Of a stretch of 64,000 bases of DNA, positions 14,669-39,938 are shown one piece after another. The notes below the pieces were generated by a model, which was not told the origin of the DNA, did not search any database, and saw nothing but the letters and a program-made list of their open reading frames with translations. The translations under genes and the position numbers were made by a program. How positions within the stretch are numbered: the stretch's first letter is position 1; every line of letters begins with the position of its first letter. Source of the stretch: Desulfosporosinus acididurans (GTDB taxonomy: Bacteria > Bacillota > Desulfitobacteriia > Desulfitobacteriales > Desulfitobacteriaceae); contig NZ_LDZY01000003.1 in assembly GCF_001029285.1 (NCBI RefSeq), positions 310,001-374,000 of the forward strand, written 5' to 3'.

Positions 14669-14705
14669 TGGTGACCATTCTCTTGTTGAAGTGGAAATGT
14701 TTTCA
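14669..14705 (+). repeat. Degenerate copy of the dispersed hairpin repeat
   Basis: TATGGTGACCATTCTC then CTTGTTGAAGTGG. The first part aligns with the 18.45 kb copy (TATGGTGAACCACTCCC); the second shares a 13-base run with the 16.9 kb copy. It begins 3 bases after the yabE stop, the placement seen for the other copies. The stem is eroded. Confidence 0.4.
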
Positions 14706-14740
14706 AAAGGCTCCTGAAAAGTTTATTCAGGGGCTTTTCC
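14705..14740 (+). terminator. Hairpin terminator after yabE
   Basis: AAAAGGCTCCTGAA (14705-14718) pairs with TTCAGGGGCTTTT (14726-14738) around a 7-base loop. The descending arm ends in TTTT, giving a short U-tract. Confidence 0.65.
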
Positions 14741-14761
14741 TATGATCATCAAACATCTATG

Positions 14762-14883
14762 CCCCGGGCAGCTCCACCGGACATCTTCGTGCTAAACCTT
14801 CGGATAATACCTAAGGCGAGAAGTTATAACTTTTAACTTAGGGTCATAGTCTTTAGGGTAACCTAAGAAACGGGGGAATTTGA
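14762..14883 (+). promoter_or_regulatory. Structured leader that can hide the cwlD ribosome-binding site
   Basis: CCCCG (14762-14766) is complementary to CGGGG (14871-14875), which overlaps the GGGGG ribosome-binding site 7 bases before the cwlD ATG. Between them are mutually exclusive arms: ACCTAAG (14809-14815), CTTAGGGT (14837-14844), TTTAGGGT (14852-14859) and CCTAAG (14862-14867), plus the palindrome AAGTTATAACTT (14821-14832). The layout is that of a translational riboswitch or protein-responsive leader. I do not recognise the class. Confidence 0.4.
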
Positions 14884-15591
14884 ATGCGTCTGCTTTTGGG
14901 AGTACCGGGAAAGAAAATGGCAATTGGTTTTGTTCTTGGGGTTATGAGTTTGTTAATTTTTTCAGTACTTTGGCAGGGCTCCACAGCAGTCGTTAGTCAT
15001 TTCGCAGAACATTATACGGTAATGCTCGATCCCGGGCATGGTGGGTACGATCCGGGAGCAATTTCATCTCAGGGAGTTTATGAAAAATCGATCAACCTGC
15101 AAATTGCTCAAAAAGTTAAGGAAATGCTTAGGCCCTCCGGTATTGAGGTTTTTTTAACGAGAGAGGAAGATATTGACTATGTGCCTGCCGGAGTTAAAGG
15201 GAAAATTACGAAAAAGCAAATTGATCTAAACCGCCGTATAGCAATGGCCAGTCGAGCAAAAGCCGATGTGTTTGTCAGCCTTCATGTCAATGCTACACCT
15301 CAGGGACGGAATTCCGGAGCTGAGACATTTTATCATTATAAATCAAAATCAGGCAAAGAATTAGCTGAATTAATCCAACAAGAACTGATAAAAATACCAG
15401 CAATGAATCGAAGAATTGCCAAACCGGGAGATTTTTATATCATCAATAATACAAGTATGCCGGCAGTTATTGTTGAAGTAGGGTATTTATCCAGTGCTAA
15501 AGAACAAAAAAAGCTTCAACAATCATGGTATCAAGAACAATTATCCAGAGCAATTGCTAAAGGGATTGCCCGATATTTTGAAATACCATAA
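14884..15591 (+). CDS. cwlD: N-acetylmuramoyl-L-alanine amidase, CwlD-like
   Basis: Zinc amidase of the Amidase_3 family, which cuts the bond between MurNAc and L-alanine. CwlD makes muramic-delta-lactam in spore cortex so that germination enzymes can recognise it. The 235 residues (B. subtilis CwlD has 237) start with a membrane anchor (about 12-33). Catalytic and zinc residues are visible: His52 in DPGHGG, Glu67 in YEKSINLQ, His133 in SLHVNA and Glu198 in VEVGYLSS. There are no binding repeats, which favours CwlD over a vegetative autolysin. The start is fixed by GGGGG 7 bases upstream. Confidence 0.8.
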   Translation: MRLLLGVPGKKMAIGFVLGVMSLLIFSVLWQGSTAVVSHFAEHYTVMLDPGHGGYDPGAISSQGVYEKSINLQIAQKVKEMLRPSGIEVFLTREEDIDYVPAGVKGKITKKQIDLNRRIAMASRAKADVFVSLHVNATPQGRNSGAETFYHYKSKSGKELAELIQQELIKIPAMNRRIAKPGDFYIINNTSMPAVIVEVGYLSSAKEQKKLQQSWYQEQLSRAIAKGIARYFEIP

Positions 15592-15628
15592 TTAATAACT
15601 ATAGGATAAATTATACTCTTAGAACTAT

Positions 15629-15636
15629 CATACATA
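15629..15636 (+). promoter_or_regulatory. Candidate mother-cell (sigma-E-type) -10 element of the GH18 gene
   Basis: CATACATA matches the sigma-E -10 pattern CATACANT at 7 of 8 positions, 66 bases before the lipoprotein start. The -35 region is weak, so this is tentative. Confidence 0.25.
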
Positions 15637-15701
15637 ACGTTGTTTGAAGCGGGGAGAATAAAGTCAGTAACCGAATCTATTCGAAGGAGTTGAAGCGCAG
15701 C

Positions 15702-16874
15702 ATGAAACGGTTTCTGACTTTTATGATGAGCAGTACCCTGATTCTGGGACTTGCCTTAACAGGATGTTCGAATGTACCGACTCCTAACACGCCATCAAAT
15801 CAACAACAGCAAACTTCAAAGAGTACACAACCCCCGAAAGCTGAGGCTGGAGCCACTCGGGATTCTGTTTTGGGATCAGACAAACGAGTTGTTATGGGAT
15901 TTTACACAGACCCAGAAGGGCCGACTCCCGGTTCAAAGGCATCTATGACCAAGAATGGAAAGATGCTTGATGAAGTTGCCTTTTTCTGGTATTCCTTTGA
16001 TGGTTCAGGAAAAGTGATTCCAGCAGGAAATGTTGATATGAGCGCCAAAAATACGGCGAAAAAAAATGGTTCGAAAGTCTATGCCTTGGTTCATAACATG
16101 AATATGAGCGGAAGTGTAGGGTTTGATGCCAATTTAGCGCATCGTGTTTTAGCAAACGCCGGAGCACGTTCCAATTTCGTCACAAATTTGGTAAATCTCG
16201 CAATGAAAGATAACTGGGATGGAATTTCTGTTGATATCGAGAAAACACCACCTGCTGACCGCAACAATTTTTCGGCCTTTGTGGCGCAATTAGGCAAAGC
16301 ATTGAAGGCCAAGGATAAAGTCCTCAATATCTCTATTCCTGCAAAGTTTGTGGATTATCCTTCTGATTTGTGGTCTGGTGCTTATGATTACGCGGCAATT
16401 GGTAAAGCAGCCGATCAAGTTGTTCTTATGACTTATGATGAACATGGTATGGGAACAACGCAAGGACCTATTGCTTCACAGGGTTGGGTTGATCGTGTTA
16501 TTACCTTTGCAGTTGGCAAGATCCCCAGCAATAAGATCGTAATGGGACTTCCCGTATATGCTTATGACTGGGGTTCAAATAAGCCATTAATGCCGGATTA
16601 TTTATCCTATGCTCAAGCTGTTGCACGAGCCAAAAAACATGGCGTTCAAATTTTAACTGATCCCAGTGCTAAAGTTCCACAGTTTACCTATACGGTAAAT
16701 GGAGTTCGACACGAAGTATTTTTTGAAAATGCAGCAAGTTTAAAAACAAAAATGAAGTATACATTACAACACAAGCTGCATGGTGTCGCTATTTGGCGTC
16801 TTGGAATGGAGGATCCCTCAATTTGGAATTCTGTGTCGAGTACCTTTGGAACAAATAAAACAACAGCTAAGTAG
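15702..16874 (+). CDS. Glycoside hydrolase family 18 lipoprotein
   Basis: Secreted, lipid-anchored glycosidase, probably an N-acetylglucosaminidase acting on peptidoglycan or cortex, like the spore YaaH/SleL group. The signal peptide ends in lipobox LTGC (Cys at about residue 22), followed by a Pro/Gln/Thr-rich linker. The GH18 barrel shows the DGxxxDxE signature as DGISVDIE, with the catalytic Glu near residue 180, and later VVLMTYDEHG and GVAIWRLGMEDP. I prefer ATG 15702 because the upstream TTG at 15690 touches the ribosome-binding site AAGGAG. The neighbours yabE and cwlD-like point to a cell-wall role. The stop codon lies in the dispersed repeat. Confidence 0.82.
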   Translation: MKRFLTFMMSSTLILGLALTGCSNVPTPNTPSNQQQQTSKSTQPPKAEAGATRDSVLGSDKRVVMGFYTDPEGPTPGSKASMTKNGKMLDEVAFFWYSFDGSGKVIPAGNVDMSAKNTAKKNGSKVYALVHNMNMSGSVGFDANLAHRVLANAGARSNFVTNLVNLAMKDNWDGISVDIEKTPPADRNNFSAFVAQLGKALKAKDKVLNISIPAKFVDYPSDLWSGAYDYAAIGKAADQVVLMTYDEHGMGTTQGPIASQGWVDRVITFAVGKIPSNKIVMGLPVYAYDWGSNKPLMPDYLSYAQAVARAKKHGVQILTDPSAKVPQFTYTVNGVRHEVFFENAASLKTKMKYTLQHKLHGVAIWRLGMEDPSIWNSVSSTFGTNKTTAK

Positions 16875-16970
16875 TGAACTCGTTCAGCTAAGCTGAACGC
16901 CTAGCCCAGCCCATAACAAATGCTATCGCTTAAAACTCCCACTTGTTGAAGTGGGAGTTTTACATTGGAT
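16872..16970 (+). repeat. Dispersed hairpin repeat, copy A
   Basis: TAGTGAACTCGTTCAGC, a small hairpin (GTTCAGC/GCTGAAC), GCCTAGCCC, TAACAAATGCTATCGC, then a strong terminal hairpin AAAACTCCCACTT / AAGTGGGAGTTTT (about 16932-16961) and TAC-ATTGGATAAA. The first three bases are the stop codon of the GH18 gene. The T-run after the stem could end transcription. Confidence 0.75.
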
Positions 16971-17045
16971 AAATTAAATCAAAATTTGAGTCTTTGCCGA
17001 ATCTCAGGTAAGATAAAAGGAGTTGGAAACGGAGGGAATATTGTA

Positions 17046-17597
17046 GTGATCAAGGAACTTATAGTGGTAGAAGGGAAAAATGACGCCCATGCAGTTCGTC
17101 TAGCCCTGGGAAATGTTGATATTCTTTGGACTGAAGGCTTTGGACTAACAAAGGAAAAACTAGAATATATTGCTGAAATGGCAGTTCGCCAAGGTGTCAT
17201 TGTTTTTACAGACCCTGATACCGTTGGAGAGCAGATTCGAAAGCGTATAGGTAACTATGTTCCTCAGGTTAAGCATGCTTATCTTAGTAAAAAGGCTGCG
17301 ACGAAACGGGGAGACATTGGGGTGGAGAATGCCAACCTCGAAGAAATTCGCCGTGCTTTCGCTCATATTCAACAGGAGCAAGAGAGTTCAGTTGAGACAT
17401 TTACCATGGACGATTTATGGTCGGCAGGCCTTGCGGGTTCGAGCCGGGCAAGTGATTTTCGCTTGGCCTTAGGGAGACGATTAGGAATAGGTGACAATAA
17501 TGCTAAACAATTTCTTCACCGCTTGAACCGGTTTGGGATATCTCGAGAATTATTTTTTAAGGTAGTTGAGGAGGCTAGGCATGGAGAGTACTGCTGA
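17046..17597 (+). CDS. rnmV: Ribonuclease M5
   Basis: Toprim-fold endonuclease that matures 5S rRNA by trimming both ends of the precursor. The Toprim signatures are VVEGKNDAHAVRLA near the N-terminus and FTDPDTVGEQIRKRI near residue 60, giving the acidic metal site. Length from GTG 17046 is 183 residues, as in the family; GGAGGG ends 9 bases before it, and the upstream 27 codons do not look like protein. It overlaps ksgA by 17 bases, the usual rnmV-ksgA order. An rRNA operon lies at the right end of this window. Confidence 0.92.
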   Translation: MIKELIVVEGKNDAHAVRLALGNVDILWTEGFGLTKEKLEYIAEMAVRQGVIVFTDPDTVGEQIRKRIGNYVPQVKHAYLSKKAATKRGDIGVENANLEEIRRAFAHIQQEQESSVETFTMDDLWSAGLAGSSRASDFRLALGRRLGIGDNNAKQFLHRLNRFGISRELFFKVVEEARHGEYC

Positions 17598-18408
17598 ATA
17601 TGTCAGACGTCTCATCCGAAGTGGTTCACGTGCTTATAAATCCCTGGGACAAGTTTTTCTGGTCAGCGATCAGGCAATTGAGGGGATTGTTAAAGCAAGC
17701 ACTTTTAGACCGGATGTGCCCCTGGTGGAAATTGGCCCTGGTCTGGGCGTCTTAACACGAGCTTTGGCCCCCAAAGTCGAAAAGATGTGGGCTGTTGAAT
17801 TAGACTCCCAGAAAATTGATACTTTGAAGAAAGAGCTGCAGGGACTTCCCATCGAATTTGTACATATGGATGCACTTGAACTTAATTTAAAAGAACTTTG
17901 GGGAGATCAAAAGGGATATTTGGTCGGCAATTTGCCCTATTATATTACAAGTCCTCTCATCATGCATTTTTTAGATCAAGAAGACATTTTGAGCGGGATG
18001 ACAATCATGGTTCAAAAAGAGGTAGCTGACAGGATAGCTGCCCGTCCGGGGAGTAGAACTTATGGGGTTTTATCCATAGCTGTTCAAGTTTCGGCCCAGG
18101 TTACAAAAGTAATGGATGTCATGCCCAGGGATTTTTGGCCGGCCCCGAAAGTAACATCTTCTGTGTTACGATTAGATCTTCGCCCTTATCCAGGTCTCGA
18201 AGTCGATAAAACAAAGTTTTTTCGAGTTGTAAAAGCTGCTTTCAGCCAGCGTCGTAAAACCCTGGGAAACTCTCTTTCTGCAGGTTTAGCCCTGGATAAG
18301 GAAGTTGTTGTTAAAGAATTGAATATGGCTGGAATCTCAGATGGACGACGGGCAGAGTCATTAAGCATTGAGGAATTTCAGATTGTAACGAAGTTATTTT
18401 ACTCATAG
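17581..18408 (+). CDS. ksgA: 16S rRNA dimethyladenosine transferase KsgA
   Basis: Dimethylates A1518 and A1519 in helix 45 of 16S rRNA, a late step in small-subunit assembly. The Rossmann methyltransferase core shows EIGPGLGVLTRAL (SAM motif I) and the catalytic NLPYYITSP (motif IV). The C-terminal helical domain includes FSQRRKTLGNSL. Length is 275 residues from ATG 17581, which has TTGAGGAGG upstream and lies within the rnmV end. Confidence 0.94.
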   Translation: MESTAEYVRRLIRSGSRAYKSLGQVFLVSDQAIEGIVKASTFRPDVPLVEIGPGLGVLTRALAPKVEKMWAVELDSQKIDTLKKELQGLPIEFVHMDALELNLKELWGDQKGYLVGNLPYYITSPLIMHFLDQEDILSGMTIMVQKEVADRIAARPGSRTYGVLSIAVQVSAQVTKVMDVMPRDFWPAPKVTSSVLRLDLRPYPGLEVDKTKFFRVVKAAFSQRRKTLGNSLSAGLALDKEVVVKELNMAGISDGRRAESLSIEEFQIVTKLFYS

Positions 18409-18446
18409 TTAACTACAGAAGTAGAAAGTTTTTGAAGCAAGGTATG

Positions 18447-18495
18447 GTGAACCACTCCCACTTTTAGAAGAAGTGAGAGTCTTACGAATTGGATA
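18447..18495 (+). repeat. Dispersed hairpin repeat, copy B (short form)
   Basis: GTGAACC joined directly to ACTCCCACTT, a loop, GAAGTGAGAGTCTTACG and ATTGGATAA. It lacks the middle module of copies A and D. One stem base differs (GTGAGAG against GTGGGAG), so it is slightly decayed. It follows ksgA. Confidence 0.65.
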
Positions 18496-18519
18496 AGTTA
18501 GAGAAATATCTTATAAAAG

Positions 18520-18554
18520 GAAAGCCTTATTGTATTAATTAGGCTTTCTTTTTT
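18520..18554 (+). terminator. Intrinsic terminator after ksgA
   Basis: AAAGCCTTA and TTAGGCTTT arms (about 18520-18547) with an AT-rich loop, followed by CTTTTTT. Confidence 0.7.
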
Positions 18555-18678
18555 ATACAACAACATTTTAGAAATGTCTATCTTTTCAGGAGCAAGCATA
18601 AAATTGGAGAAATTTCCGAATTCTATGGAAGCGTATTTTTTGTTTCAATATAAGGATTAAATTAAAGGGAGGATAGGT

Positions 18679-19272
18679 TTGAGTAAAGAAAGTAACCATT
18701 GGTTAATGAAGTGGTCAAATATTATTGCCACACTGGCGACAACTGTATTGGCAATAACTGCTTTAATTACTGTTTATTTGACGGTTGCCGCCTGGAAAGT
18801 ACAGCAAGAAACAGCGCGGCCATACTTTGTTTTGAAGGAATCACCTCAAGTGGTTTTAGGGAATGAGCTGAGTTTAGAATTAAAATTTAATAATGTTGGA
18901 GTTCATCCGGCAGTAAATTTATCAAGTGAAACTATTGTCTTTGATGAAACATTATCGGGAGAACCGATTCACCATGACGAATCAGCCATTGTCAACGAAA
19001 TTCCCAAAGATGCTCTGTCAAGTCTGGTAATGATACTTCCAAGTGAGAAGCCTAATTATCAGCAAAGTGATATCAAGCCTCATTATGTTGTTGTTGACTT
19101 ACAATATGGAGATCCAATTTTAAATAAATCATATAACCAAACTATTTATATGAAATGGAATGGCATCGAAAAAGGCAAAGTTCAGCCAACGGTTCACGTT
19201 CGGGTCGATGAGAAGACGAAAGTATTACAATACTTTCAGAAACACGGGATAGACCTCAAAGAGAGGAGTTGA
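18679..19272 (+). CDS. Membrane-anchored protein of unknown function
   Basis: I do not recognise this 197-residue protein. It has one membrane helix near the N-terminus (about residues 13-38; IIATLATTVLAITALITVY), preceded by a short polar head. A polar domain of about 155 residues follows, rich in beta-type sequence and with no cysteines, suggesting an N-in, C-out anchored protein. The TTG start follows GGGAGGA. It stands alone between a repeat/terminator and a converging glycosyltransferase, only 10 bases away. Bacillus has no counterpart in this position, so it is probably an accessory gene. Confidence 0.6.
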   Translation: MSKESNHWLMKWSNIIATLATTVLAITALITVYLTVAAWKVQQETARPYFVLKESPQVVLGNELSLELKFNNVGVHPAVNLSSETIVFDETLSGEPIHHDESAIVNEIPKDALSSLVMILPSEKPNYQQSDIKPHYVVVDLQYGDPILNKSYNQTIYMKWNGIEKGKVQPTVHVRVDEKTKVLQYFQKHGIDLKERS

Positions 19273-19282
19273 TAGTTTCTGG

Positions 19283-20161
19283 TTAAACATTAGTTTCGTC
19301 TGATGATATTGAACTGCAAGCTAAGACAGGGGTTCTGGGAAGAATAACATGTTGTTCGTAAAATATGTCTCGAGATTTTAACGATTGTTCCCAAGTTTGG
19401 AGCAGATCAAAACGTCTTTCCGGATGATAACCAAGTAACTGATGCTTGCCGAGTGAACGAGTTGAAGGAAGATCTTGGCTCAGCGCCATTCCCATAAGGC
19501 AATCGCCGATAATGGTTTCGGCAATTAAGCGGGCATGGCCCCGATGTTTTCTGGGAGAGTGAAGTCTTTGATGGGGAATGGATGTTGCTACTTTTATCGC
19601 GAGATCCAATCTTTTGGCCCAAAATAAGGTGAGAGGCGGAATCGCAATAGCCTCAGAAGGGATATTTAACAAAGCCCGCTTGGAAAGGGCATGAGGTCCG
19701 TGTGTTGGGGTAGATAGGCCAAGACTTTTAAATAAATCGAGTTCGCGATTGAGCTTGGCACGAAATTTCAGAACAAGATTGGCCAGCTTTTGGCGGTTGG
19801 TTATATAGGGATAACAATTTGTTAGAGCGACATCAACTCCAGAGTTCACTGTTGTGATGAGAGAAAGCAGGTTTTGATAGATATCCCCGGACATATCGCC
19901 GTCAATAAAAAGGGTTCCATCTACGCCTAAAGAGCGAGCATAAAGGGACCCTACCGCTCGTGGTATATCAATGCCTAAAGGGTCAGAAAAGAACAATATA
20001 TGGATACGGGAATCAGGAATGGAACGAGCAAGTTCTAAAGTCTGATCTGTGCAGCCATTGAGAACTAAAATAATATAATCTACGGGAAGACGCAAAACCG
20101 TTGTTAAAACTGCCAAAATGCTCTTCTCCTCATTTTTGGCGGGTATGATCGCTGAGAACAT
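19283..20161 (-). CDS. Family 2 glycosyltransferase
   Basis: GT-A fold enzyme that transfers a sugar from a nucleotide donor to an unknown acceptor. The N-terminus has the family signature SAIIPAKNEEKSI, then VLNGCTDQTLELAR, and FIDGDMSGD supplies the metal-binding DxD-type motif near residue 87. No membrane helices are evident in the 292 residues, so it is likely cytosolic or peripheral. It is divergent from yabG, with about 90 bases between them holding an inverted repeat. A spore-coat or exosporium sugar role is possible from context but unproven. Confidence 0.8.
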   Translation of the reverse strand: MFSAIIPAKNEEKSILAVLTTVLRLPVDYIILVLNGCTDQTLELARSIPDSRIHILFFSDPLGIDIPRAVGSLYARSLGVDGTLFIDGDMSGDIYQNLLSLITTVNSGVDVALTNCYPYITNRQKLANLVLKFRAKLNRELDLFKSLGLSTPTHGPHALSKRALLNIPSEAIAIPPLTLFWAKRLDLAIKVATSIPHQRLHSPRKHRGHARLIAETIIGDCLMGMALSQDLPSTRSLGKHQLLGYHPERRFDLLQTWEQSLKSRDIFYEQHVILPRTPVLACSSISSDETNV

Positions 20162-20197
20162 TCTTGCTCCTCCTTTGGGATTTACTAGTTATAGTAT

Positions 20198-20227
20198 ATG
20201 TCGTTTGCTGGTATGCGACATAAGATA
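20198..20227 (+). promoter_or_regulatory. Inverted repeat and sigma-K-like -10 element before yabG
   Basis: ATGTCG (20198-20203) and CGACAT (20216-20221) form an inverted repeat between the divergent glycosyltransferase and yabG genes. It overlaps CATAAGATA (20219-20227), an exact fit to the sigma-K -10 pattern CATANNNTA. yabG is a sigma-K gene in B. subtilis. The -35 is not clear. Confidence 0.35.
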
Positions 20228-20254
20228 TAGCGAAAAGGGGAAGGAGGGGAGTCC

Positions 20255-21091
20255 ATGTTTCGAGTCGGGGATATCGTAGCCAGACGTTCTCATCAGCAGG
20301 ATATTTATTTTCACATCGTCAATGTCATTGATGGTAATCCTGAAGAGCGTTCGGCGATCATCAAAGGGCTTAATTTAAGGCTATTAGCTGATGCTCCGTT
20401 TTCGGATCTTGTGTTTAAAAGTCCAGTCGAAGTAATGAACTATGAACGAGAAGATAATAAAATGATCTATAAAAAGTTACACAAGCTTACAAGTCAGAGA
20501 AAGGCAGTACAGGACGACTTAAAGGAATATTTTGAAATCCCCGGCCGGGTTCTGCAGTTAGATGGGGATCAAGAGTATTTAAATCAATGTATAAGGACCT
20601 ATCGTCAAATGGGAATTGAAGCCAAGGGGATTTGTAAAAGTGAGGTAGAACAACCAAAAGTAATTCGTAAAATTTTGCAAGAAAATCCAACGGATATTTT
20701 AGTGTTAACTGGGCATGATGGATTTCTGCGAGGGAAAAAGGATTTTCATAGTCTAGACAGTTATCGGAGTTCGAGGTATTTTGTAGAGTCAGTTTTAGAG
20801 GCCCGCCGCTTTCAGCCTAATCGAGATGGCCTGGTTATTTTTGCCGGGGCCTGTCAATCTAACTATGAGGCTATTCTGGAAGCGGGAGCAAATTTCGCTT
20901 CATCACCGAAGAGGATGTTGATTCATGCTTTTGATCCGGTGTTTATAGTCGAAAGAATCGCTTTTACTCCCATGGATCAAATTGTCTCAGTCAAAGACAT
21001 TTTAATGCATACAATCACAGGAACGGACGGGGTTGGCGGGATCGAGACACGGGGGCAAATGCGGCGAGGTTATCCGAGAAGCCCTTATTGA
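20255..21091 (+). CDS. yabG: Sporulation-specific protease YabG
   Basis: Cysteine protease that processes coat proteins during late sporulation and, in Clostridioides, proteins controlling germination. The 278 residues match YabG in length and content: N-terminal FRVGDIVARRSHQQDIYFHIV, the central DILVLTGHDGF and the FAGACQSNYEAILEAGANFASSP region, which would carry the catalytic His and Cys. The start follows AAGGAGGGGAG. In Bacillus, yabG also follows ksgA closely. Expression in the mother cell late in sporulation is expected. Confidence 0.93.
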   Translation: MFRVGDIVARRSHQQDIYFHIVNVIDGNPEERSAIIKGLNLRLLADAPFSDLVFKSPVEVMNYEREDNKMIYKKLHKLTSQRKAVQDDLKEYFEIPGRVLQLDGDQEYLNQCIRTYRQMGIEAKGICKSEVEQPKVIRKILQENPTDILVLTGHDGFLRGKKDFHSLDSYRSSRYFVESVLEARRFQPNRDGLVIFAGACQSNYEAILEAGANFASSPKRMLIHAFDPVFIVERIAFTPMDQIVSVKDILMHTITGTDGVGGIETRGQMRRGYPRSPY

Positions 21092-21098
21092 TGTGTTA

Positions 21099-21137
21099 GA
21101 GAGCGGTTGTGTTTAACAGACCGCTCTCGTTTCTCTT
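21099..21137 (+). terminator. Terminator after yabG
   Basis: GAGAGCGGT (21099-21107) pairs perfectly with ACCGCTCTC (21120-21128), followed by a T-rich GTTTCTCTT. It lies between two converging genes. Confidence 0.65.
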
Positions 21138-21182
21138 AATCTCATTTTTATCCACTTGTATCAATGGATGGTTCCTTGCTAT

Positions 21183-21521
21183 CTACGATTGAATTTTAAC
21201 AGGTGTGCCTATTTCTACATGTTGGTAAACAAATTCCGCGTCCTGGTTATACATGCGGATACAGCCTTTCGATACAGCTTGACCAATACTGGCTGGGTTA
21301 TTTGTGCCATGAATTCCATATTGAGGAAGAGAAAGGCCCATCCAGCGGCTGCCAAAAACTCCTCCGGGATACATAGCTTTGGCTGCGATGTAGAAGAAAC
21401 CATGGGGCGTGGGAGTTTCGTTTTTGCCAACGGCAATTGGAAAACGATATATTAGGCGGTTGTCTTCGTAAAGCTCAAGTTGGCGGCGTTGAGTATGAAC
21501 AACAAGAGAAGAACTGGACAT
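21183..21521 (-). CDS. L,D-transpeptidase (YkuD domain) without signal peptide
   Basis: A minimal YkuD-fold catalytic domain. The motif HGTNNPASIGQAVSKGCIRM supplies the catalytic His and Cys of L,D-transpeptidases, which make 3-3 crosslinks or attach groups to peptidoglycan. From ATG 21521 the protein is 112 residues. The ATG at 21530 lies one base from AGGAGG, too close to use, so I prefer the second, 10 bases away. The frame stays open for about 60 codons upstream, but that part has no signal peptide. It therefore lacks an evident export signal. It converges on yabG and diverges from cphB. Confidence 0.82.
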   Translation of the reverse strand: MSSSSLVVHTQRRQLELYEDNRLIYRFPIAVGKNETPTPHGFFYIAAKAMYPGGVFGSRWMGLSLPQYGIHGTNNPASIGQAVSKGCIRMYNQDAEFVYQHVEIGTPVKIQS

Positions 21522-21642
21522 TGATTTCATGCCTCCTTTCTTCACTAAAGGGTATATTTCATGGTATGTAAGGAATTCTTGAATGTTCGTTGCATAATAC
21601 CCCTTCTTTAGGCGGAAAATAAAAGGGACTGGAGGGATTTTT

Positions 21643-22443: not shown

Positions 22444-22534
22444 AGGACTGATTTAGAGGGAGGAATACCAAACGGAAAAAAGGTTAAAACTATTGTAGTA
22501 TGATCCATGCTATTGAAGGGAGAAAAACAACATA

Positions 22535-25192: not shown

Positions 25193-25247
25193 AGTGAACT
25201 CGTTCAGCACTCCCACTTGTAGAAGTGGGAGTTTTACGGTTGGATAA
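25193..25247 (+). repeat. Dispersed hairpin repeat, copy C (short form)
   Basis: TAGTGAACTCGTTCAGC is fused directly to ACTCCCACTTGTAGAAGTGGGAGTTTTACG (split here only by the loop GT-AG), then TTGGATAAA. It keeps the two ends of copies A and D but lacks the middle module. It begins 9 bases after the cphA stop and could end cphA transcription. Confidence 0.75.
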
Positions 25248-25390
25248 ATTTGTGAATTATGAAGCGATGGAATTCCTTCGCTTCTTTTCTTTTTGTTTTG
25301 TTTCATTTCATGAGAGAACGCTGGAATCCTTCGGAAAAACATGTATAATAAAAAGAAATGCAATCCTAACGTTCGGAGATGGTTATAGTA

Positions 25391-32141: not shown

Positions 32142-32158
32142 TAGGGAGGTGAAACGGG

Positions 32159-32335
32159 ATGAGGGTTATGAAAGTATGTCATGCCTGTGACAGGATCCTA
32201 GGAGAGATTGAGCTTGATGACTTGACCAGCGCCGATTCGGACTCTATAATGGATATCGTTGGAAATGTCTCTTATACCCTTTGTCCAGATTGTCTGAATG
32301 AACTGAAAACAGAGTCTGGAAATGTTTTTCATTAA
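32159..32335 (+). CDS. fin: Anti-sigma-F factor Fin
   Basis: Small zinc protein that binds sigma-F and helps the forespore switch to sigma-G. The 58-residue gene starts at ATG 32159, 7 bases after the strong AGGGAGGTGA. The protein (MRVMKVCHACDRILGEIEL...) has two cysteine pairs, CHAC at 7-10 and CPDC at about 44-47, the Fin zinc pattern, and a short acidic middle. Its position between pth and mfd is the same as fin (yabK) in Bacillus, which is the main reason for the call; the sequence is shorter than B. subtilis Fin (about 76 residues). An in-frame ATG at 32168 is a less likely start. Confidence 0.82.
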   Translation: MRVMKVCHACDRILGEIELDDLTSADSDSIMDIVGNVSYTLCPDCLNELKTESGNVFH

Positions 32336-32385
32336 AGATATTTCAGTACTAAGAGTTTAGGGCGGACAATAATTTGTTAAATGTA

Positions 32386-32408
32386 GGCATGTCGCTTGAC
32401 GCCATGCC
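32386..32408 (+). repeat. Inverted repeat near the mfd start
   Basis: GGCATG (32386-32391) and CATGCC (32403-32408) pair around an 11-base loop. It lies inside the longest possible mfd frame but before the start I prefer, so it is more likely untranslated. Confidence 0.35.
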
Positions 32409-32481
32409 TTATTATCAGTTTAGAGGAGTAGGCAAGTGGGGGTCCCATGATGGACGTTCATCTTTTTTGCCGCCCGAAAGG

Positions 32482-35400
32482 ATGGGTGTTTTGAAAATAA
32501 TTCGTGATTACCTCTGCCGGGGGCTGGATATTGACAAGATTGAGGGGTCCCTAAGGTCAGGAGAATGGCCTCAAATGATTTATGATTTAAGCGGCAGTCA
32601 AAAGGCAGCTCTGATCTCCCAACTATTGCAGAATTCAACCCCGGGATTAGTGTTGACCTATTCTGAAGAACAGGCTCAAAAGTGGACTGCGGATTTAAAA
32701 ACATGGTGCCCTCAAAAAACGATCTTACATTTTCCCGCTACTGAGTGGCTCCCCTTTGAAGTTCTGGGAAAAAGCAAAGAAACGACGGCGGAGAGAATTC
32801 GTGTTTTTAATCGTCTGTCATTGGATCAAGACTGCACGGTTGTTGCCTCTGTATTAGCATTAGAGCGGCGCGTGTTTCCACTTCGGCGCTGGAAGGATTA
32901 TTCCCTGACCTTAGAAGTGGGAAAAGGGTATATGCTCAATGATATTCTTTCAATCCTGATTTCTGGAGGATATGAGCGTGTCGAAACGGTTGAAGGAAAG
33001 GGTCAGTTTGCCCTGAGAGGGGGGATTTTAGATATTGCCCCTCTTGATGGAGAAGCCCTGCGTATAGAATTTTTCGATGAAGAAGTGGATTCTATTCGAA
33101 CTTTTAATCTTGAAACCCAGAAATCGATTTCGTCTCAAGAGAGAGTTTTAATCTCTCCGGCAATGGAATATGTAGTAACAAGGGAAGAACTTGAAGAACT
33201 GCGCTTTACTATTCGGGCAGAAGCCCGCAAAGCGACAGGCCGCCTGCAGCGAGCAGGCAGAACAGAAGCAGCGGAGCGTTTGCGCAGCAGGGTGATTTTC
33301 CTCGAAGAACGTTTGCAGCAGGGAATCCTCGATGAGAATGTCTATCCATTCCTAAGTTTGGTTAATACGCCTCTCGTTCCCTTTTTCTCATATTTGGCCG
33401 AAAATCATTATGTCATCTTAGATGAGCCGCTGCGCTTAAAAGAACAGTTAGAGTTTCAGGCTAATGAACGCTTGATGGAATTTACACAGCAATTAGAACA
33501 GGGTGAAGGCTTTGTCCACCCTGAGACTCTGTTTATCAGGTATGAAGATTTGCTGAGGCACGGCCAAAAAAATCCTTTCATTGGTCTCTCTACGTTAATA
33601 AGGCAGACGCCGGGTCTGACTCCTAAACGGGTTTTTAATCTCAACGCCCGTTCTCTGACCGGTTTTATGGGAAAAACAAGCAAGTTAGTGGATGAAATCG
33701 AACATTATAGGGATGCAGGAAATATTGTTGCTCTCTTCGCGGGAGATGAGGAACATACTGAGCGTTTGCTCCAAGGTCTTAAGGACAGGGGGGTCACAGC
33801 CAGCCGCAAAAATCTCGAAGATACAATTGAAGATGGACATGTATATGTCTATCCGTATTCCTTGGATCAAGGCTTTGAACTGCCTCTGGGAAAACTCGTG
33901 GTGCTTACGGAAGCTGAAATTTACAAACGCGAGAGTAAGGTCGCCGGAAAGAAACCGAGTCCTGCTTCGACAAAAAATATTTATGTCTCGGACCTAAAAC
34001 CCGGGGATTATGTAGTTCACGTTCATCATGGAATTGGGCAATTTACCGGGATTGAACGCTTAGAGGTTGCCGGAATAGAAAAGGATTACTTTGGAATTCG
34101 CTATGCCGGTGAGGATCGCCTTTACGTTCCTTTGGACCAACTTCATCTTTTACAAAAGTATTTAGGAAGTGCTGCGGAGAGTTTGCCCAAGCTCTACAAG
34201 CTCGGAGGAACTGAGTGGCATAAAGTAAAAAGCAAAACCCGCTCCGCGGTTAAAGAAATGGCTTTTGATTTACTAAAGCTCTATGCCCAGCGGGAGGCTA
34301 CTTCGGGATATGCCTTTTCACCGGACAATGTTTGGCAGATAGAATTCGAAGAGAAATTTCCTTATGTTGAAACAGACGATCAACTACAGTGTATTGCCGA
34401 TATTAAACGGGATATGATGCTTTCTCGTCCTATGGACCGGCTTCTTTGCGGAGATGTAGGTTATGGGAAAACAGAGGTTGCTCTCAGAGCAGTATTTAAG
34501 GCGGTTATGGACAGCAAGCAGGTAGCCTTCTTAGTTCCGACCACCATCCTGGCACAACAACATTTCAACACTTTGCGCGAACGATTTACAGGGTATCCCA
34601 TAACGATTGATATGTTGAGCCGGTTTCGTTCGCCTAAGGAGCAGAAAGAAATCATCCAGGGCCTAAAAGAAGGACGGATTGATGTTATTGTAGGAACCCA
34701 TCGCATTTTAGCGGATGCTGTTAAATTTAAGGATTTAGGGCTTTTGATTATCGACGAGGAACAACGTTTCGGAGTTGCCCATAAAGAAAAACTGAAAACC
34801 ATTAAGGGTAATGTTGATGTGCTCACCTTGTCGGCAACACCGATTCCCCGAACTCTTCATATGTCCCTAGTCGGAGTCAGGGACATGAGCGTAATAGAAA
34901 CTCCGCCGGAAGGCAGATATCCCGTACAAACCTATGTCACGGAGTTTCGGCCTGACGTAGTGCGGGATGCTATAAGACGGGAACTTCAACGGGGAGGACA
35001 GGTGTTTTTTGTTCACAATCGAGTTGAGGATATGGACAAGGTTACTAACTTTTTAGGTCAATTAGTTCCGGAGGCTCGTTTTGGTGTGGCTCATGGACAG
35101 ATGCGGGAATCCATGCTGGAACGGGTTATGCTTGATTTTTTGGAACAGCAAACGGATGTCCTAGTTTCAACTACGATTATTGAAACAGGTCTTGATATGC
35201 CCAACGTCAATACACTGATTATTGATGAAGCTGACCGCATGGGTTTGTCCCAGTTATATCAGCTTCGCGGCAGAGTTGGAAGGTCAAACCGCAAAGCCTA
35301 TGCTTATCTTCTGTATAAACCTCAGAAAGTTCTTACAGAAATAGCTGAGAAACGGCTGGCTGCCATTCGTGAGTTTACCGAATTTGGAGCAGGTTTTAAG

Positions 35401-36021
35401 ATTGCTATGCGGGATTTGGAAATTCGCGGTGCAGGGAATTTGATCGGGGCTCAACAGCATGGCCATTTAGCAGCTGTCGGCTTCGAACTTTATAGTCAGA
35501 TGCTCAAGGAAGCAGTTCAGGAATTGCGGGGAGAAAAGGTTGAAGAAGCTGCAGAGCCAAGTATTGAGCTGCAAATCGATGCCTATTTGCCTGATTCTTA
35601 TGTCGCTGATAAGCAAACTAAGGCTTCTTTGTATCAGCGGCTGGCCAAGGTTGCCGACGAGGCAGAACTTGGAGAAATGGTTGATGAATTAATAGATCGT
35701 TTTGGAGCGCCGCCTCGTGAGGTGGAACATTTAATTGAAATTATCCGTATCAAGCTTTTAGCCGGTCCGATTCGCATAGAACAAATTCAACAAACAAAAC
35801 AAAATATCAGCCTTCGCTTTGGAGCAGATCTTGGGATGTCCGGAGAGAGGTTAATGGCCATCGCTTCAGCTTCTCCCTTGCCCCTGTCGTTTAATTCTCT
35901 GCCTAATGGAAATCTGGAATGTAAGGTTCGCACTCGTACGCTTGATCAAGAAGAGGTGATTGGGGCAGTGCGGCGTGTCCTTATAATTTTTGGGAACATT
36001 GCTTCGAGGGGAACTCCCTGA
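32482..36021 (+). CDS. mfd: Transcription-repair coupling factor Mfd
   Basis: ATP-dependent translocase that removes RNA polymerase stalled at DNA damage and recruits UvrA. From ATG 32482 it is 1179 residues, normal for Mfd. The order is: UvrB-like N-terminal domains (about 1-480), the RNA polymerase interaction domain (about 490-560, beginning near GDYVVHVHHGIGQF), the RecG-like helicase (Walker A GDVGYGKTEVA, DEEQ box, LSATPIPRTL) and a C-terminal TRCF domain. The frame is open upstream to a TTG at 32374 (1215 residues), but those 36 codons are not family-like and contain an inverted repeat; the exact start is uncertain. Confidence 0.94.
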   Translation: MGVLKIIRDYLCRGLDIDKIEGSLRSGEWPQMIYDLSGSQKAALISQLLQNSTPGLVLTYSEEQAQKWTADLKTWCPQKTILHFPATEWLPFEVLGKSKETTAERIRVFNRLSLDQDCTVVASVLALERRVFPLRRWKDYSLTLEVGKGYMLNDILSILISGGYERVETVEGKGQFALRGGILDIAPLDGEALRIEFFDEEVDSIRTFNLETQKSISSQERVLISPAMEYVVTREELEELRFTIRAEARKATGRLQRAGRTEAAERLRSRVIFLEERLQQGILDENVYPFLSLVNTPLVPFFSYLAENHYVILDEPLRLKEQLEFQANERLMEFTQQLEQGEGFVHPETLFIRYEDLLRHGQKNPFIGLSTLIRQTPGLTPKRVFNLNARSLTGFMGKTSKLVDEIEHYRDAGNIVALFAGDEEHTERLLQGLKDRGVTASRKNLEDTIEDGHVYVYPYSLDQGFELPLGKLVVLTEAEIYKRESKVAGKKPSPASTKNIYVSDLKPGDYVVHVHHGIGQFTGIERLEVAGIEKDYFGIRYAGEDRLYVPLDQLHLLQKYLGSAAESLPKLYKLGGTEWHKVKSKTRSAVKEMAFDLLKLYAQREATSGYAFSPDNVWQIEFEEKFPYVETDDQLQCIADIKRDMMLSRPMDRLLCGDVGYGKTEVALRAVFKAVMDSKQVAFLVPTTILAQQHFNTLRERFTGYPITIDMLSRFRSPKEQKEIIQGLKEGRIDVIVGTHRILADAVKFKDLGLLIIDEEQRFGVAHKEKLKTIKGNVDVLTLSATPIPRTLHMSLVGVRDMSVIETPPEGRYPVQTYVTEFRPDVVRDAIRRELQRGGQVFFVHNRVEDMDKVTNFLGQLVPEARFGVAHGQMRESMLERVMLDFLEQQTDVLVSTTIIETGLDMPNVNTLIIDEADRMGLSQLYQLRGRVGRSNRKAYAYLLYKPQKVLTEIAEKRLAAIREFTEFGAGFKIAMRDLEIRGAGNLIGAQQHGHLAAVGFELYSQMLKEAVQELRGEKVEEAAEPSIELQIDAYLPDSYVADKQTKASLYQRLAKVADEAELGEMVDELIDRFGAPPREVEHLIEIIRIKLLAGPIRIEQIQQTKQNISLRFGADLGMSGERLMAIASASPLPLSFNSLPNGNLECKVRTRTLDQEEVIGAVRRVLIIFGNIASRGTP

Positions 36022-36057
36022 TATACTGGACTAAGTGAATTGAAAGGGTGTGTCGGA

Positions 36058-37026
36058 ATGAAAAAATCCCGGCTGGGGATACTAGTGAGTATTCTTATGG
36101 TGACGCTGATCACTGTGGGGTGTTCCTCGCTGGTTGACGGCAAATGGGCAGCCAAAGTTAACGGAGAATCTATCTCAGTTAAGGACTATGATGCTCGTGT
36201 GGCAGAGGCTCAAAAAACCTACGAGAATCAAGGCATGAAGTTTGATACAGACCAAGGAAAACAAGCGTTGACCCAAATTAAAAGTCAAGTCCTAGAGCGA
36301 ATGATTGAAGGTAAAATTCTTGACCAAGAGGTTAAGAACCTTAAGTTGAAGACAGAGGATCCTGCTATTAAGAGTCAGGAAGACACTATAAAAAAGAATA
36401 TGGGAACAGATGCTAAATTTCAGGATATGCTAAACCAACAAGGAATGAGCGAATCGGAATTAAAGAACTTCTTAGCGGTTTATACCAAGATAACCACGGA
36501 TGTGAAACAGCCGACAGAGAGCGAAGTTCAAGCCTATTTTGAGAAAAACAAAGCCAATTATGGCCAGCCTGAGAGTGTTACTGCTCATCATATTTTGCTC
36601 AAGACTGAAGCTGAGGCCAAAGCAATTATTGCCCAGTTAGAACAGGCCCAAAAAAATAACGTTCAGATTCTTCCTTTGTTCGAACAATTAGCGAAAGAAA
36701 AATCTATTGAACCGGGAGCCAAGCAGTCGGGAGGAGATCTTGGCACCTTTACGAAAGGGAAAATGGTGCCGGAGTTTGAAGCGGCGGCCTTTGCTCAGAA
36801 GGTAGGGACATTTTCCACAACTCCGGTTAAAACGCAGTTCGGTTATCATGTAATTTACGTTCAAGCGCATACGCCTGCTACTACTCCGGATTTTGCGAAA
36901 GTAAAGACTCAAGTAACCCAGGATGCTTTTAATGCGGCTAAGGACACCAAATTTCAGACGTTTTTTGATGACCTGCGTAAAAAAGCTAAGATTGAATATG
37001 CTAAAGGATATCAACCGGCAAGTTAA
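36058..37026 (+). CDS. PrsA-like peptidyl-prolyl isomerase lipoprotein
   Basis: Extracytoplasmic foldase helping secreted proteins fold. The 322 residues have a signal peptide with lipobox TVGC (Cys at about residue 22). A SurA-like N-terminal chaperone region (about 30-165) and a parvulin PPIase domain (about 175-290) follow, the latter with TAHHILLKTEAEA, GGDLGTFTKGKMVPEFE and FGYHVIYV. ATG 36058 is chosen because the upstream TTG at 36040 precedes the AAAGGGTG ribosome-binding site. Bacillus has no such gene between mfd and spoVT, but it is common there in clostridia. Confidence 0.88.
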   Translation: MKKSRLGILVSILMVTLITVGCSSLVDGKWAAKVNGESISVKDYDARVAEAQKTYENQGMKFDTDQGKQALTQIKSQVLERMIEGKILDQEVKNLKLKTEDPAIKSQEDTIKKNMGTDAKFQDMLNQQGMSESELKNFLAVYTKITTDVKQPTESEVQAYFEKNKANYGQPESVTAHHILLKTEAEAKAIIAQLEQAQKNNVQILPLFEQLAKEKSIEPGAKQSGGDLGTFTKGKMVPEFEAAAFAQKVGTFSTTPVKTQFGYHVIYVQAHTPATTPDFAKVKTQVTQDAFNAAKDTKFQTFFDDLRKKAKIEYAKGYQPAS

Positions 37027-37040
37027 GGGTGATAAAAAAA

Positions 37041-37069
37041 GAAGGCAAAATTTATTGCCTTCTTTTTTT
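37041..37069 (+). terminator. Intrinsic terminator after the PrsA-like gene
   Basis: GAAGGCAA and TTGCCTTC arms (37041-37062) followed by seven T residues, with seven A residues before the stem. Confidence 0.88.
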
Positions 37070-37085
37070 GTGCATTGGAAAATAA

Positions 37086-37116
37086 TGAATAATTGGCAAT
37101 CTCTAGATATATACTA
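37086..37116 (+). promoter_or_regulatory. Sigma-G promoter of spoVT
   Basis: TGAATA (37086-37091), an 18-base spacer and TATACTA (37110-37116) match the sigma-G consensus TGAATA / CATACTA with one mismatch. spoVT is a sigma-G gene in B. subtilis. A leader of about 60 bases follows. Confidence 0.65.
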
Positions 37117-37184
37117 TCATTGATCTGAAATAGTAATAGAAAGGACGAAATGAGTCTTCGGGAACAAAGGAGGAATGTGCGCCT

Positions 37185-37751
37185 ATGAAAGCAACAGGCA
37201 TTGTAAGAAGAATTGATGACCTCGGTCGTGTCGTTATTCCAAAGGAAATTCGTCGGACTCTTCGTATCCGGGAAGGAGATCCGTTAGAGATTTTTGTAGA
37301 TCGTGAAGGGGAAGTTATCCTAAAAAAATACTCCCCGATAAGAGAATTAGGGGAGTTTGCCAAGGAGTATGCTGATTCGTTGTTTGAAGCAACCGGACAC
37401 ATTACTTGCATTTCGGATAGAGATACTATTATTGCAGTGGCAGGCGCTTCGAAGAAAGAGTATTTAAATAAACCAATTGATCATCCAGTGGAACAGGCCA
37501 TGGAGGAAAGGAGAACTATTCAAATCGGGTTGACGAACTCCGGTGAGACCAATGTACCTAAAATTAGCGACGATGACGAAGACGATAAAGCAAAAATAGT
37601 CTGTGAAGTCATCGCCCCCATAATATCCCAAGGGGACCCTATCGGAGCGGTTATTATCATATCGAAAGAGCCAAATGCCAAGATGGGGGATTTAGAAATT
37701 AAATTGGTAGAGACGGCAGCAGTATTTTTGGCCAAACAAATGGAGCAATAG
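37185..37751 (+). CDS. spoVT: Stage V sporulation regulator SpoVT
   Basis: Forespore transcription factor that tunes sigma-G genes, including germination genes. The 188 residues join an AbrB-type swapped-hairpin DNA-binding domain (about 1-52; ATGIVRRIDDLGRVVIPKEI) to a GAF-like domain (about 57-180), which separates it from AbrB. The ATG follows AAAGGAGGAA. An acidic insert (DDDEDDK, about 124-130) is visible. It is flanked by terminators on both sides, so it is a single-gene unit with its own promoter. Confidence 0.94.
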   Translation: MKATGIVRRIDDLGRVVIPKEIRRTLRIREGDPLEIFVDREGEVILKKYSPIRELGEFAKEYADSLFEATGHITCISDRDTIIAVAGASKKEYLNKPIDHPVEQAMEERRTIQIGLTNSGETNVPKISDDDEDDKAKIVCEVIAPIISQGDPIGAVIIISKEPNAKMGDLEIKLVETAAVFLAKQMEQ

Positions 37752-37823
37752 GCGTTACTATAAATTAGTTACTCTTATACTTCCGGAATGTAATTATATA
37801 TTAATTGAATTTCTGGTCGTAGG

Positions 37824-37850
37824 AATAAAGCGGTACTCCCGCTTTATTTT
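37824..37850 (+). terminator. Intrinsic terminator after spoVT
   Basis: AATAAAGCGG (37824-37833) pairs perfectly with CCGCTTTATT (37839-37848), followed by TT-ACTTT. Confidence 0.75.
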
Positions 37851-37884
37851 ACTTTATGCTACACTAGCTTTAGGAGGTGAAAGA

Positions 37885-39342
37885 ATGTCTTCGTGTCTTC
37901 ATGTCATTGGTCTTGGCCCTTCGGGGCTTGAACAATTAACGTTAGGAAACTATCGCCGTCTTTGTAACGCCAAGAAGGTTTTTGTAAGAACTTTGCATCA
38001 TCCCTGTGTTCAGGAATTAATGGCGGAAGGCGTTCAGTTAGAATCCTTTGATGAAGTTTATGATTCGGAGGATACCTTTGAAGAGGTGTATCAAAAGATA
38101 ACGGAACGATTAAGAACAGAGTTAGGAAAGGACTCGGAAGTTATTTATGCCGTGCCAGGTCATCCTATGGTAGCTGAGAAAACTATTCAGCTGCTCTGGA
38201 AAAATTTAAGACCAGAATATGAAGTAATTGTTCATCCTGCTATGAGCTTTGTTGATGAGATTTTCCGGGTACTGAATTTTGATCCCATTGAAGGGATGCT
38301 TATTCGAAATTATGATGCGCTCAAAGATGCGGGACTAACAGGGAGAGAGTGGCTCATTATTCCTCAGGTTTATAATCAACTCATTGCTTCTGAGGTTAAA
38401 CTTGATCTCATGAGTTCCTATCCCGATGAGGCAGATGTCTTTATTGTACAGGGACTGGGCACTTACAATGAGCGGGTGGACAAGCATCCTCTTTTCGAAA
38501 TGGATCATGGTTCCTTTGATCACCTAACGACAATCGTCTTGCCACCTTGTTCGGAGGTTATTTCTTGGACAAAATTACTTCAAATCATGGAAATTTTGCG
38601 TTCGCCAGATGGTTGTGCTTGGGATCGCGAACAAAATCATCAAACCTTAAAACCTTGTCTGATTGAAGAGAGCTATGAGGTATTAGAGGCGATCGAAAAA
38701 GAGGATATGTATAATTTATGTGAAGAGTTGGGAGACTTATTACTGCAAGTTGTATTTCATGCTCAAATTGCCTCAGAGAACAAGATATTTGAAAGTCAGG
38801 ATGTTTTACAAGGGATTATTCAAAAACTGCTTCGCAGGCATCCTCACGTATTCGGTGAAGAAGTGCTTGAAACTGCTGACGATGTGATTCGTTCATGGGA
38901 TAGAATTAAACAAGAGGAAAAGGCTGACACAAAGGAAGAAAGAGGCTTTTTCAGTGACCCTAAAGGGTTGCCTGCTCTTATGCTGGCTTCCTCAACGCAG
39001 CGCCGGGCGGCTAAAATAGGGTTCGATTGGAGTGATCTGGAGGGACCATGCCAGAAGGTTCAGGAAGAATTACTTGAGCTGCAGAATGCCTTAAAAACCG
39101 GAGTAGGTATTCGGGAGGAATTTGGGGATTTGTTGTTTGCAATGGTCAATGTATCGAGATTCCTTAAATTGGACGCAGAGGAAGTTCTAAGGGAAGCAGT
39201 ACATAAGTTTCAGGCGCGTTTCCTTAAAATGGTGGAATTAAGCCGCGAAGAAGGTCAAAAAATTGAGCAACTATCCCTTAACGAAATGGATGCCTATTGG
39301 GAAAAGGCAAAATTACAAGAAAAAGGCGGCAAATTAATGTAA
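37885..39342 (+). CDS. mazG: MazG nucleotide pyrophosphohydrolase with N-terminal tetrapyrrole-methylase domain (YabN type)
   Basis: Two-part protein that probably clears aberrant nucleoside triphosphates. Residues about 1-215 form a tetrapyrrole (SAM-dependent) methylase-like domain (HVIGLGPSGLEQLTLG; VIYAVPGHPMVAEK) of unknown activity. Residues about 225-485 contain the MazG part with two all-alpha NTP-PPase units whose metal-binding acids are seen in EESYEVLEAIE and EEFGDLLFAMVN. Length is 485 residues, as for YabN of B. subtilis. The ATG follows TAGGAGGTGA. It is followed by hup and rqcP. Confidence 0.93.
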   Translation: MSSCLHVIGLGPSGLEQLTLGNYRRLCNAKKVFVRTLHHPCVQELMAEGVQLESFDEVYDSEDTFEEVYQKITERLRTELGKDSEVIYAVPGHPMVAEKTIQLLWKNLRPEYEVIVHPAMSFVDEIFRVLNFDPIEGMLIRNYDALKDAGLTGREWLIIPQVYNQLIASEVKLDLMSSYPDEADVFIVQGLGTYNERVDKHPLFEMDHGSFDHLTTIVLPPCSEVISWTKLLQIMEILRSPDGCAWDREQNHQTLKPCLIEESYEVLEAIEKEDMYNLCEELGDLLLQVVFHAQIASENKIFESQDVLQGIIQKLLRRHPHVFGEEVLETADDVIRSWDRIKQEEKADTKEERGFFSDPKGLPALMLASSTQRRAAKIGFDWSDLEGPCQKVQEELLELQNALKTGVGIREEFGDLLFAMVNVSRFLKLDAEEVLREAVHKFQARFLKMVELSREEGQKIEQLSLNEMDAYWEKAKLQEKGGKLM

Positions 39343-39425
39343 TCTTACGCGAATAAGCAGGAGATTGATTATTTATCGCGAAATATAGTTTACGAGATAA
39401 GATCAGTTATTTAGGAGGGACTAGT

Positions 39426-39701
39426 TTGAATAAGGCTGAGTTAGTAAGTGCAGTTGCTGAGAAGGCAGAAATGTCCAAGAAGGACGCAGAAAAGGCAGTA
39501 AGTGCCGTTTTCGCTACGATCGAAGAATCTTTAGCACAAAACGAAAAAGTCCAATTAGTGGGCTTTGGGACTTTTGAAGTCAAAGAACGTGCTGAAAGAA
39601 CGGGAAGAAACCCGCAAACTAAGGAGACAATTGTCATTCCTGCCGCTAAGGTGCCTGGTTTTAAAGCGGGAAAAGCTCTAAAGGATGCAGTCCAAAAGTA
39701 A
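39426..39701 (+). CDS. hup: HU family DNA-binding protein
   Basis: Nucleoid protein that bends and compacts DNA as a dimer. The 91 residues match HU throughout: [20 protein letters not shown] (start), [24 protein letters not shown], with the Pro-containing DNA-intercalating arm [11 protein letters not shown]. The TTG start follows TAGGAGGGA. It lies between mazG and rqcP, a frequent clostridial position, and ends at a strong terminator. Confidence 0.95.
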
Positions 39702-39719
39702 GGATTTGGACTTTTGAGA

Positions 39720-39753
39720 AATCAGGTTCCGGTTATACTGGAACCTGATTTTT
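39720..39753 (+). terminator. Intrinsic terminator after hup
   Basis: AATCAGGTTCC (39720-39730) pairs with GGAACCTGATT (39740-39750) and runs into TTT. The dispersed repeat copy D begins directly at its T-run. Confidence 0.88.
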
Positions 39754-39938
39754 AGTGAACTCGTTCAGCTAAAGCTGAACATCGAGACTTCGGTGACGAA
39801 AGTGTCCTGTGGACACTTTCGCCGAAAGCGCCTAGCCCGTAACAAATGCTATCGCGCTAAAGGATGGACTTTACCCCCACCGAAGCAGAGTACGGGGACC
39901 CACTCCCACTTAAAGAAGTGGGAGTCTTACGATTGGAT
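39752..39938 (+). repeat. Dispersed hairpin repeat, copy D (full-length form)
   Basis: The longest copy, 187 bases: TTAGTGAACTCGTTCAGC with its small hairpin (GTTCAGC/GCTGAAC); a long hairpin CTTCGG...CGAAAGTGTCC / GGACACTTTCG...CGAAAG (about 39788-39827), absent from the others; GCCTAGCCC; TAACAAATGCTATCGC; a CCCC/GGGG arm near 39874 and 39896; and the terminal hairpin ACTCCCACTT / AAGTGGGAGT (39902-39925) with CTTACG and ATTGGAT. The ends match copies A-C. The shape recalls an IS200/IS605 right end or its guide-RNA region without a transposase gene. Confidence 0.75.

Follow-up and report, generated by a model that had tools for sequence, protein, structure and literature searches.

The 64,000-nucleotide stretch of the Desulfosporosinus acididurans genome analyzed here (assembly GCF_001029285.1, contig NZ_LDZY01000003.1, positions 310,001 to 374,000; hereafter the window, in whose coordinates positions are given) contains several similar hairpin-bearing repeats located close to gene ends, which raises the question of what these repeats are and how they came to lie there. 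We find that the repeats are mobile and propose, with a probability of about 0.78, that they are protein-less transposons of the IS200/IS605 class, akin to miniature inverted-repeat transposable elements (MITEs) and palindrome-associated transposable elements (PATEs), whose ends and target are those of the ISC (IscB) lineage.

Copies of the repeat in the window and in related genomes

The full element is approximately 183 bp long. In the 4.6 Mb host genome, it yielded at least 49 BLAST matches, and the covariance model yielded at least 149 (E<=0.001); the right-end pattern had 19 real matches and 0 control matches. The repeats thus form a real family, with a copy number far beyond chance. The search of the genome and its relatives with the consensus, suggested by an earlier sequence-only reading of this DNA, also showed that the family is held by 27 of the 41 related genomes, in 3 of the 10 genera, with a second family of the order represented and Desulfosporosinus metagenome-assembled genomes (MAGs) among the carriers. 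No match was detected in the viral contigs, plasmids and phages searched.

Base-level reading, combined with a profile made from full-length copies, placed the copies in the window as follows (G008, the sister genome, and G009 are the genomes used for comparison).

16873..16968, plus strand: copy at the end of the GH18 gene, with left end AGTGAACTCGTTCAGC, interior deleted, right hairpin ACTCCCACTT/AAGTGGGAGT, terminating in TTGG (direct reading and profile)
16969..16973, plus strand: target ATAAA of the GH18 copy, pre-insertion sequence (compare AATAAAT in G008)
16872..16874, plus strand: GH18 stop codon TAG spanning the junction, flank T plus element AG; TAA in the empty allele (open reading frame (ORF) 15690-16874)
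18433..18492 (about), plus strand: copy 3' of ksgA, left-truncated, right part only (direct reading and profile); missing in G008 and G009
18493-18497, plus strand: target ATAAG of the ksgA copy
25193..25243, plus strand: minimal copy 3' of a cphA-type gene, left end fused straight to the right hairpin; missing in G008 and G009
25244..25248, plus strand: target ATAAA of the cphA copy; G008 reads ...AAAAAATAAAAATTAAG...
39754..39936, plus strand: full-length copy 3' of the hup terminator, with 5' hairpin, P2 closing stem, two internal hairpins, 3' terminal hairpin and TTGG end; missing in G008 and G009
39763..39780, plus strand: left subterminal hairpin of the hup copy, GTTCAGC-TAAA-GCTGAAC
39900..39925, plus strand: right subterminal hairpin of the hup copy, ACTCCCACTT-loop-AAGTGGGAGT, then CTTACGATTGG
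39937..39941, plus strand: target ATGAA of the hup copy; ATAGA in G008, ATAAG in G009

The sequence-only reading had listed five copies. Four of these are confirmed, including the longest, at hup, with the extra internal hairpins that it described, but the supposed copy at 14669-14705, after yabE, matched neither the profile hidden Markov model nor the covariance model. The claim that the ends are joined directly in both the ksgA and the cphA copies holds for the latter only: the ksgA copy has the right end and lacks the left one, the stretch GGTGAACC that had been taken for TAGTGAAC being part of the internal ...AAGCAAGGTATGGGAACC... segment.

Filled and empty sites define a mobile element

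The genome of the sister species G008 aligns with the window at ~93% DNA identity, and the alignment breaks at the copies. Neither G008 nor G009 has any of the four window copies at the orthologous site; of the 22 host copies that could be tested, 13, these four among them, have no same-site copy in G008. Because the window sites are empty in the sister species, the element is mobile.

The exact ends follow from comparison of filled and empty sites. The GH18 site reads GCTAAGT[AGTGAAC...CATTGG]ATAAATTAAATC when filled and GCTAAGTAATAAATGTTAAATC when empty, the empty G008 site being ..GCTAAGTA followed directly by ATAAATGTTAAATC..; this comparison was made by eye, automatic alignment being poor there. 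At position 121.8k of host contig C1, the filled CTCGTGG[AGTGAAC...GATTG]AATCAAAGTGAT corresponds to the empty CTCGTGGAATCAAAGTGAT, with a clean junction (CTCGTGG joined to AATCAAAGTGAT when empty, CTCGTGG[element]ATCAAAGTGAT when filled). A reciprocal case, where the host is empty, occurs at 203k of G008 contig C32: ATTCCG[AGTGAAC...TTGG]ATAAATTGAG against ATTCAGATAAATTGAG, again with a clean junction (TTCAG joined to ATAAATTGAG in the host, [..TTGG]ATAAATTGAG in G008). The hup site reads TTTTT[AGTGAAC...TTGG]ATGAAAACTG when filled and TTTTTAATAGACACTG when empty. The joints are clean at C1:121.8k, C32:203k and GH18, and near-clean elsewhere.

The comparison thus shows that the ATAAA that follows TTGG, which seems to be borne by the repeat, is the pre-existing target, and the true element is AGTGAACT…TTGG, inserted immediately 5' of ATAAA. 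The boundaries originally assigned were slightly off accordingly, with the ATAAA past TTGG belonging to the target and the T before AGTGAAC to the flank. No target duplication was seen on the left side in the filled/empty comparisons, and the element has no terminal inverted repeats. In the flank profiles, there is no conservation to the left of AGTGAAC, whereas on the right TTGG is followed by ATAAA, with nothing conserved beyond it. The empty sites, the absence of duplication, the fixed target and the subterminal hairpins bear out the earlier suggestion of a mobile non-autonomous element of the IS200/IS605 type.

A conserved, covarying interior

The full copy consists of the left subterminal hairpin, a closing stem CTTCGG...CCGAAG that encloses two hairpins, and the right subterminal hairpin; the hairpins at the two ends are unlike each other. 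The interior folds into a conserved, covarying multi-helix structure. In a set of 21 diverse copies drawn from several species, pairing holds in 90.5% of the helix cells, compared with 38-44% after a shift of the partners by one to three columns, and double changes occupy 55 cells versus 4-11 in the shifted controls (examples: CGAAAGTGTCC/GGACACTTTCG, CAATAATGTCC/GGACATTATTG and CGAAAGCCTCC/GGAGGGTTTCG). A pseudoknot, ACTCT/AGAGT, near the 3' hairpin was attractive by eye and was rejected, as only 65% of its cells pair.

The internal modules are freely lost, up to the joining of the two ends in the cphA copy. Because the interior is often deleted, only the ends appear to be necessary for spread. 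The interior, a conserved folded RNA or single-stranded DNA, was probably inherited from an ancestor bearing an omega-RNA. Its conserved fold might reflect a living guide RNA, a requirement of the element as DNA, or descent from source copies that were active.

Several derivative copies were observed. Solo left hairpins of ~26 nt with abrupt 3' borders are present in the host (C1:47449 and C1:191636) and in G008 (C32:13133), the last being fused directly to an ATAAAT target at which the host has a full copy. Two other genomes have copies (L176:1182-1361 and L216:7538-7712) in which the part enclosed by the closing stem is inverted, as though the two arms of that stem had recombined. In the host (L058, C6:173161-176229), a decayed IS605 element directly abuts a truncated copy, whose left end there is AGTGAACTCGTTCAG, and a fragment of the right end of a further copy lies upstream.

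Proposed kinship with ISC transposons

The IscB-TnpA elements of Desulfosporosinus start with AGTGAACTACC or (A)GTGAACTACC and finish with hairpin-TTTTACG..CT directly before TATAAA; the repeat has AGTGAACT on the left, hairpin-TTACG on the right and ATAAA as the target, so that left end, right end and target correspond in both placement and orientation. A similar left end and right TATAAA occur in ISC relatives from distant phyla and other sources, namely, Niallia, Domibacillus, Ktedonobacter, a Spirochaetia MAG and other MAGs. The plus strand of the window corresponds to the iscB-coding and HEARO strand of ISC elements, and ATAAA is the published optimal 3' target-adjacent motif (TAM) of OrufIscB (PMC13180657). 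The repeat shares with ISC transposons the (A)GTGAACT left end, a right subterminal hairpin with TTACG after it, an insertion point 5' of ATAAA, and the lack of inverted repeats and of visible target duplication. It differs from them in hairpin sequences, in the absence of any gene within it (neither iscB nor tnpA) and of a HEARO covariance match, and in copy number, at least 149 compared with a few.

The comparison with HEARO RNA (RF02033), the omega-RNA of IscB, is similarly divided. Both start at the left end with GTGAACT, form a multi-helix fold and have the guide side on the left and the ATAAA side on the right, but the repeat, at about 183 nt including the right end, is below Rfam detection in the window and lacks the GTGAACT...AGTTCAC closing stem. 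In the ISC elements of the genus, HEARO next to iscB scores 131 and 118 bits. Another close known system is that of PATEs, or IS200/IS605-derived MITEs, such as those of Halanaerobium, which consist of ends only, bear palindromes and are expected to move in trans (PMC7290912); the repeat resembles these in all three respects and differs in its conserved covarying interior, its at least 149 copies and its ISC-type rather than TnpB-type ends.

IscB (PF14239) is encoded in only 3 of the 30 genomes of the genus, and the host is not among these. As the host has no iscB, HEARO or close ISC-type TnpA, the element must be mobilized in trans, now or formerly. In the proposed mechanism, an ISC-type Y1 TnpA supplied by another element would recognize the single-stranded form of both subterminal hairpins; the stretch from AGTGAACT to TTGG would be cut out and placed immediately 5' of ATAAA, leaving the target unduplicated. 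Y1 genes exist in the host genome, and none of the loci read has matching ends. Given an identity of only about 32% between the host Y1 TnpAs and the ISC TnpA, the transposase might have come from an element since lost or from occasional arrivals, or could be a cross-reacting resident enzyme.

Several observations weigh against this interpretation. The match to ISC elements is short, about 8 nt on the left and TTACG plus the target on the right, and the hairpin sequences differ. Searches of the host genome gave no match to PF14239 (RRXRR) and none to HEARO, and its best Y1 TnpAs reach only about 32-33% identity to the ISC TnpA. The HEARO covariance model did not match the repeat interior (below the gathering score), and R1, the covariance model of the repeat itself, did not match HEARO RNAs (best 12.3 bits, E 0.22). 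This repeat was absent from the ends of the Y1 TnpA loci examined in the 30 genomes of the genus; strict left/right end pairs around a gene were absent from the about 1.4 Mb scanned, where only neighboring or nested copies were found; and the loci examined yielded no autonomous element bearing exactly these hairpins. Finally, several filled/empty junctions are blurred through divergence.

Searches of Rfam at permissive E-values with a window copy and with a second subfamily also yielded no match. One locus, G024 C51 (L214), resembled an ISC element lacking IscB and turned out to be a 5'-deleted ISC element.

Alternative explanations

The best surviving alternative, albeit an unlikely one, is that the repeat is an orphan omega-RNA, with the left flank as the guide, AGTGAAC... 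as the scaffold and ATAAA as the TAM, such that an IscB-like or other nuclease acting in trans would cut the empty allele and retention would be favored. The guide and TAM positions fit the logic of IscB, the helices covary between subfamilies, and the 5' order GTGAACT-stem-CTAAAG-stem-GGCTTC resembles HEARO by eye; however, no RRXRR (IscB) or HEARO was found in the host or in 25+ other genomes of the genus, most of them repeat-bearing, many copies without the internal helices have spread all the same, and the HEARO model does not match. A slightly less probable possibility is that the repeats are protein-less transposons descended from IscB omega-RNA that persist as high-copy, stand-alone guide-type RNAs, each still guiding a nuclease in trans and protecting its own site; the nuclease would then come from an occasional ISC element or from an unrecognized protein.

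It is equally doubtful that the repeats resemble repetitive extragenic palindromes (REPs) or their hairpin-forming pairs (REPINs) and are moved by a REP-associated tyrosine transposase (RAYT, TnpA-REP) rather than by an ISC-type TnpA. REPINs are extragenic hairpin repeats of high copy number that are associated with HUH transposases (PMC3116915); the repeat is likewise high-copy, extragenic and hairpin-bearing, the host encodes a RAYT-like protein of 266 aa (contig C20), and RAYTs are present in many members of the genus. Against this, the RAYT loci read in the host (C20), G008 and G009 carry repeats of other kinds, such as GGACCGTCCC or GGAACGGCTCCC, and no copy of the present family, so that no RAYT-linked copy matches. 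With its length of 183 bp, its two unlike hairpins and its defined ATAAA target, the element instead matches ISC ends.

The host RAYT-like transposase (L063, C20:24634-24966) is flanked by GGACCGTCCC / TGACAC repeats, a REP-type system that exists in the host apart from the present family. Shorter RAYT-like proteins, of about 185-193 aa, are encoded in G008 (C35, L203) and G009 (C3, L204); the G009 protein is encoded near GGAACGGCTCCC...GGTTCCCGGAACC repeats.

The idea of a relative of TnpB guide RNAs, or of a TnpB element, is not upheld: the left flank is unconserved and the conserved motif is 3', as in the TAMs of IscB, not 5' as for TnpB, and the host Y1 TnpA and TnpB loci that were read have other ends.

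Position at gene ends

As had been noticed from the window, copies do cluster at gene ends. In contigs C1 and C3 of the host (774 kb), the left end of 18 of the 59 copies outside called ORFs lies <=20 nt from a same-strand gene end, compared with an expectation of 12% from the available intergenic or gene-end ATAAA sites; these figures rest on simple ORF calls and are approximate. The copies occur on both strands relative to genes, with the upstream gene on the opposite strand for about 40%, and are too few to give a clear signal of strand bias relative to replication.

This excess and the strong terminal hairpin would fit a resident structural or regulatory repeat, a terminator or stabilizer of mRNA 3' ends maintained by selection at gene ends, but the empty sites in sister species, the opposite-strand upstream genes, the lack of a U-run past the hairpin in most copies and the absence of terminator calls at the window copies scanned make this highly improbable. 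An intrinsic terminator, with a G+C-rich stem and a U-run, as had been proposed for the terminal hairpin, is in particular at odds with the commonest tail, TCTTACG, and with the presence of copies on both strands.

Returning to the protein-less transposon, its location likely results jointly from selection against insertions in coding sequences and from the overlap of the target with stop codons: because ATAAA contains TAA, the target often overlaps the stop-codon region. The AGTGA left end then supplies a replacement stop, as at GH18, where one copy was rightly said to contain the stop codon (TAA in the empty allele, TAG in the filled one). Since this overlap and selection against insertions into genes suffice, adoption of the repeat as a 3' end, the other option put forward in the sequence-only reading, is unneeded.

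Other features of the window

An 87-bp stretch at 42392-42479 is missing from G008 and unrelated to the repeat family; related copies occur several times in G009, and it is probably another small mobile repeat. The Rfam 'pan' motif (RF01749, 39.1 bits), a cis-regulatory RNA, is located at 55127-55239, upstream of the ORF at 55372.

Implications

A gene-less, ISC-ended element has reached at least 149 copies in a genome without iscB, HEARO or a close ISC transposase, which implies that the part of the IscB transposon system that recognizes ends is open to parasitism. The family offers many natural insertion events, presumably through single-stranded DNA, whose empty sites can be read and which follow a clear ATAAA target rule; it also has a covarying RNA-like interior, the function of which, if it has one, can be tested, and it suggests a simple explanation for the presence of such elements at stop codons.

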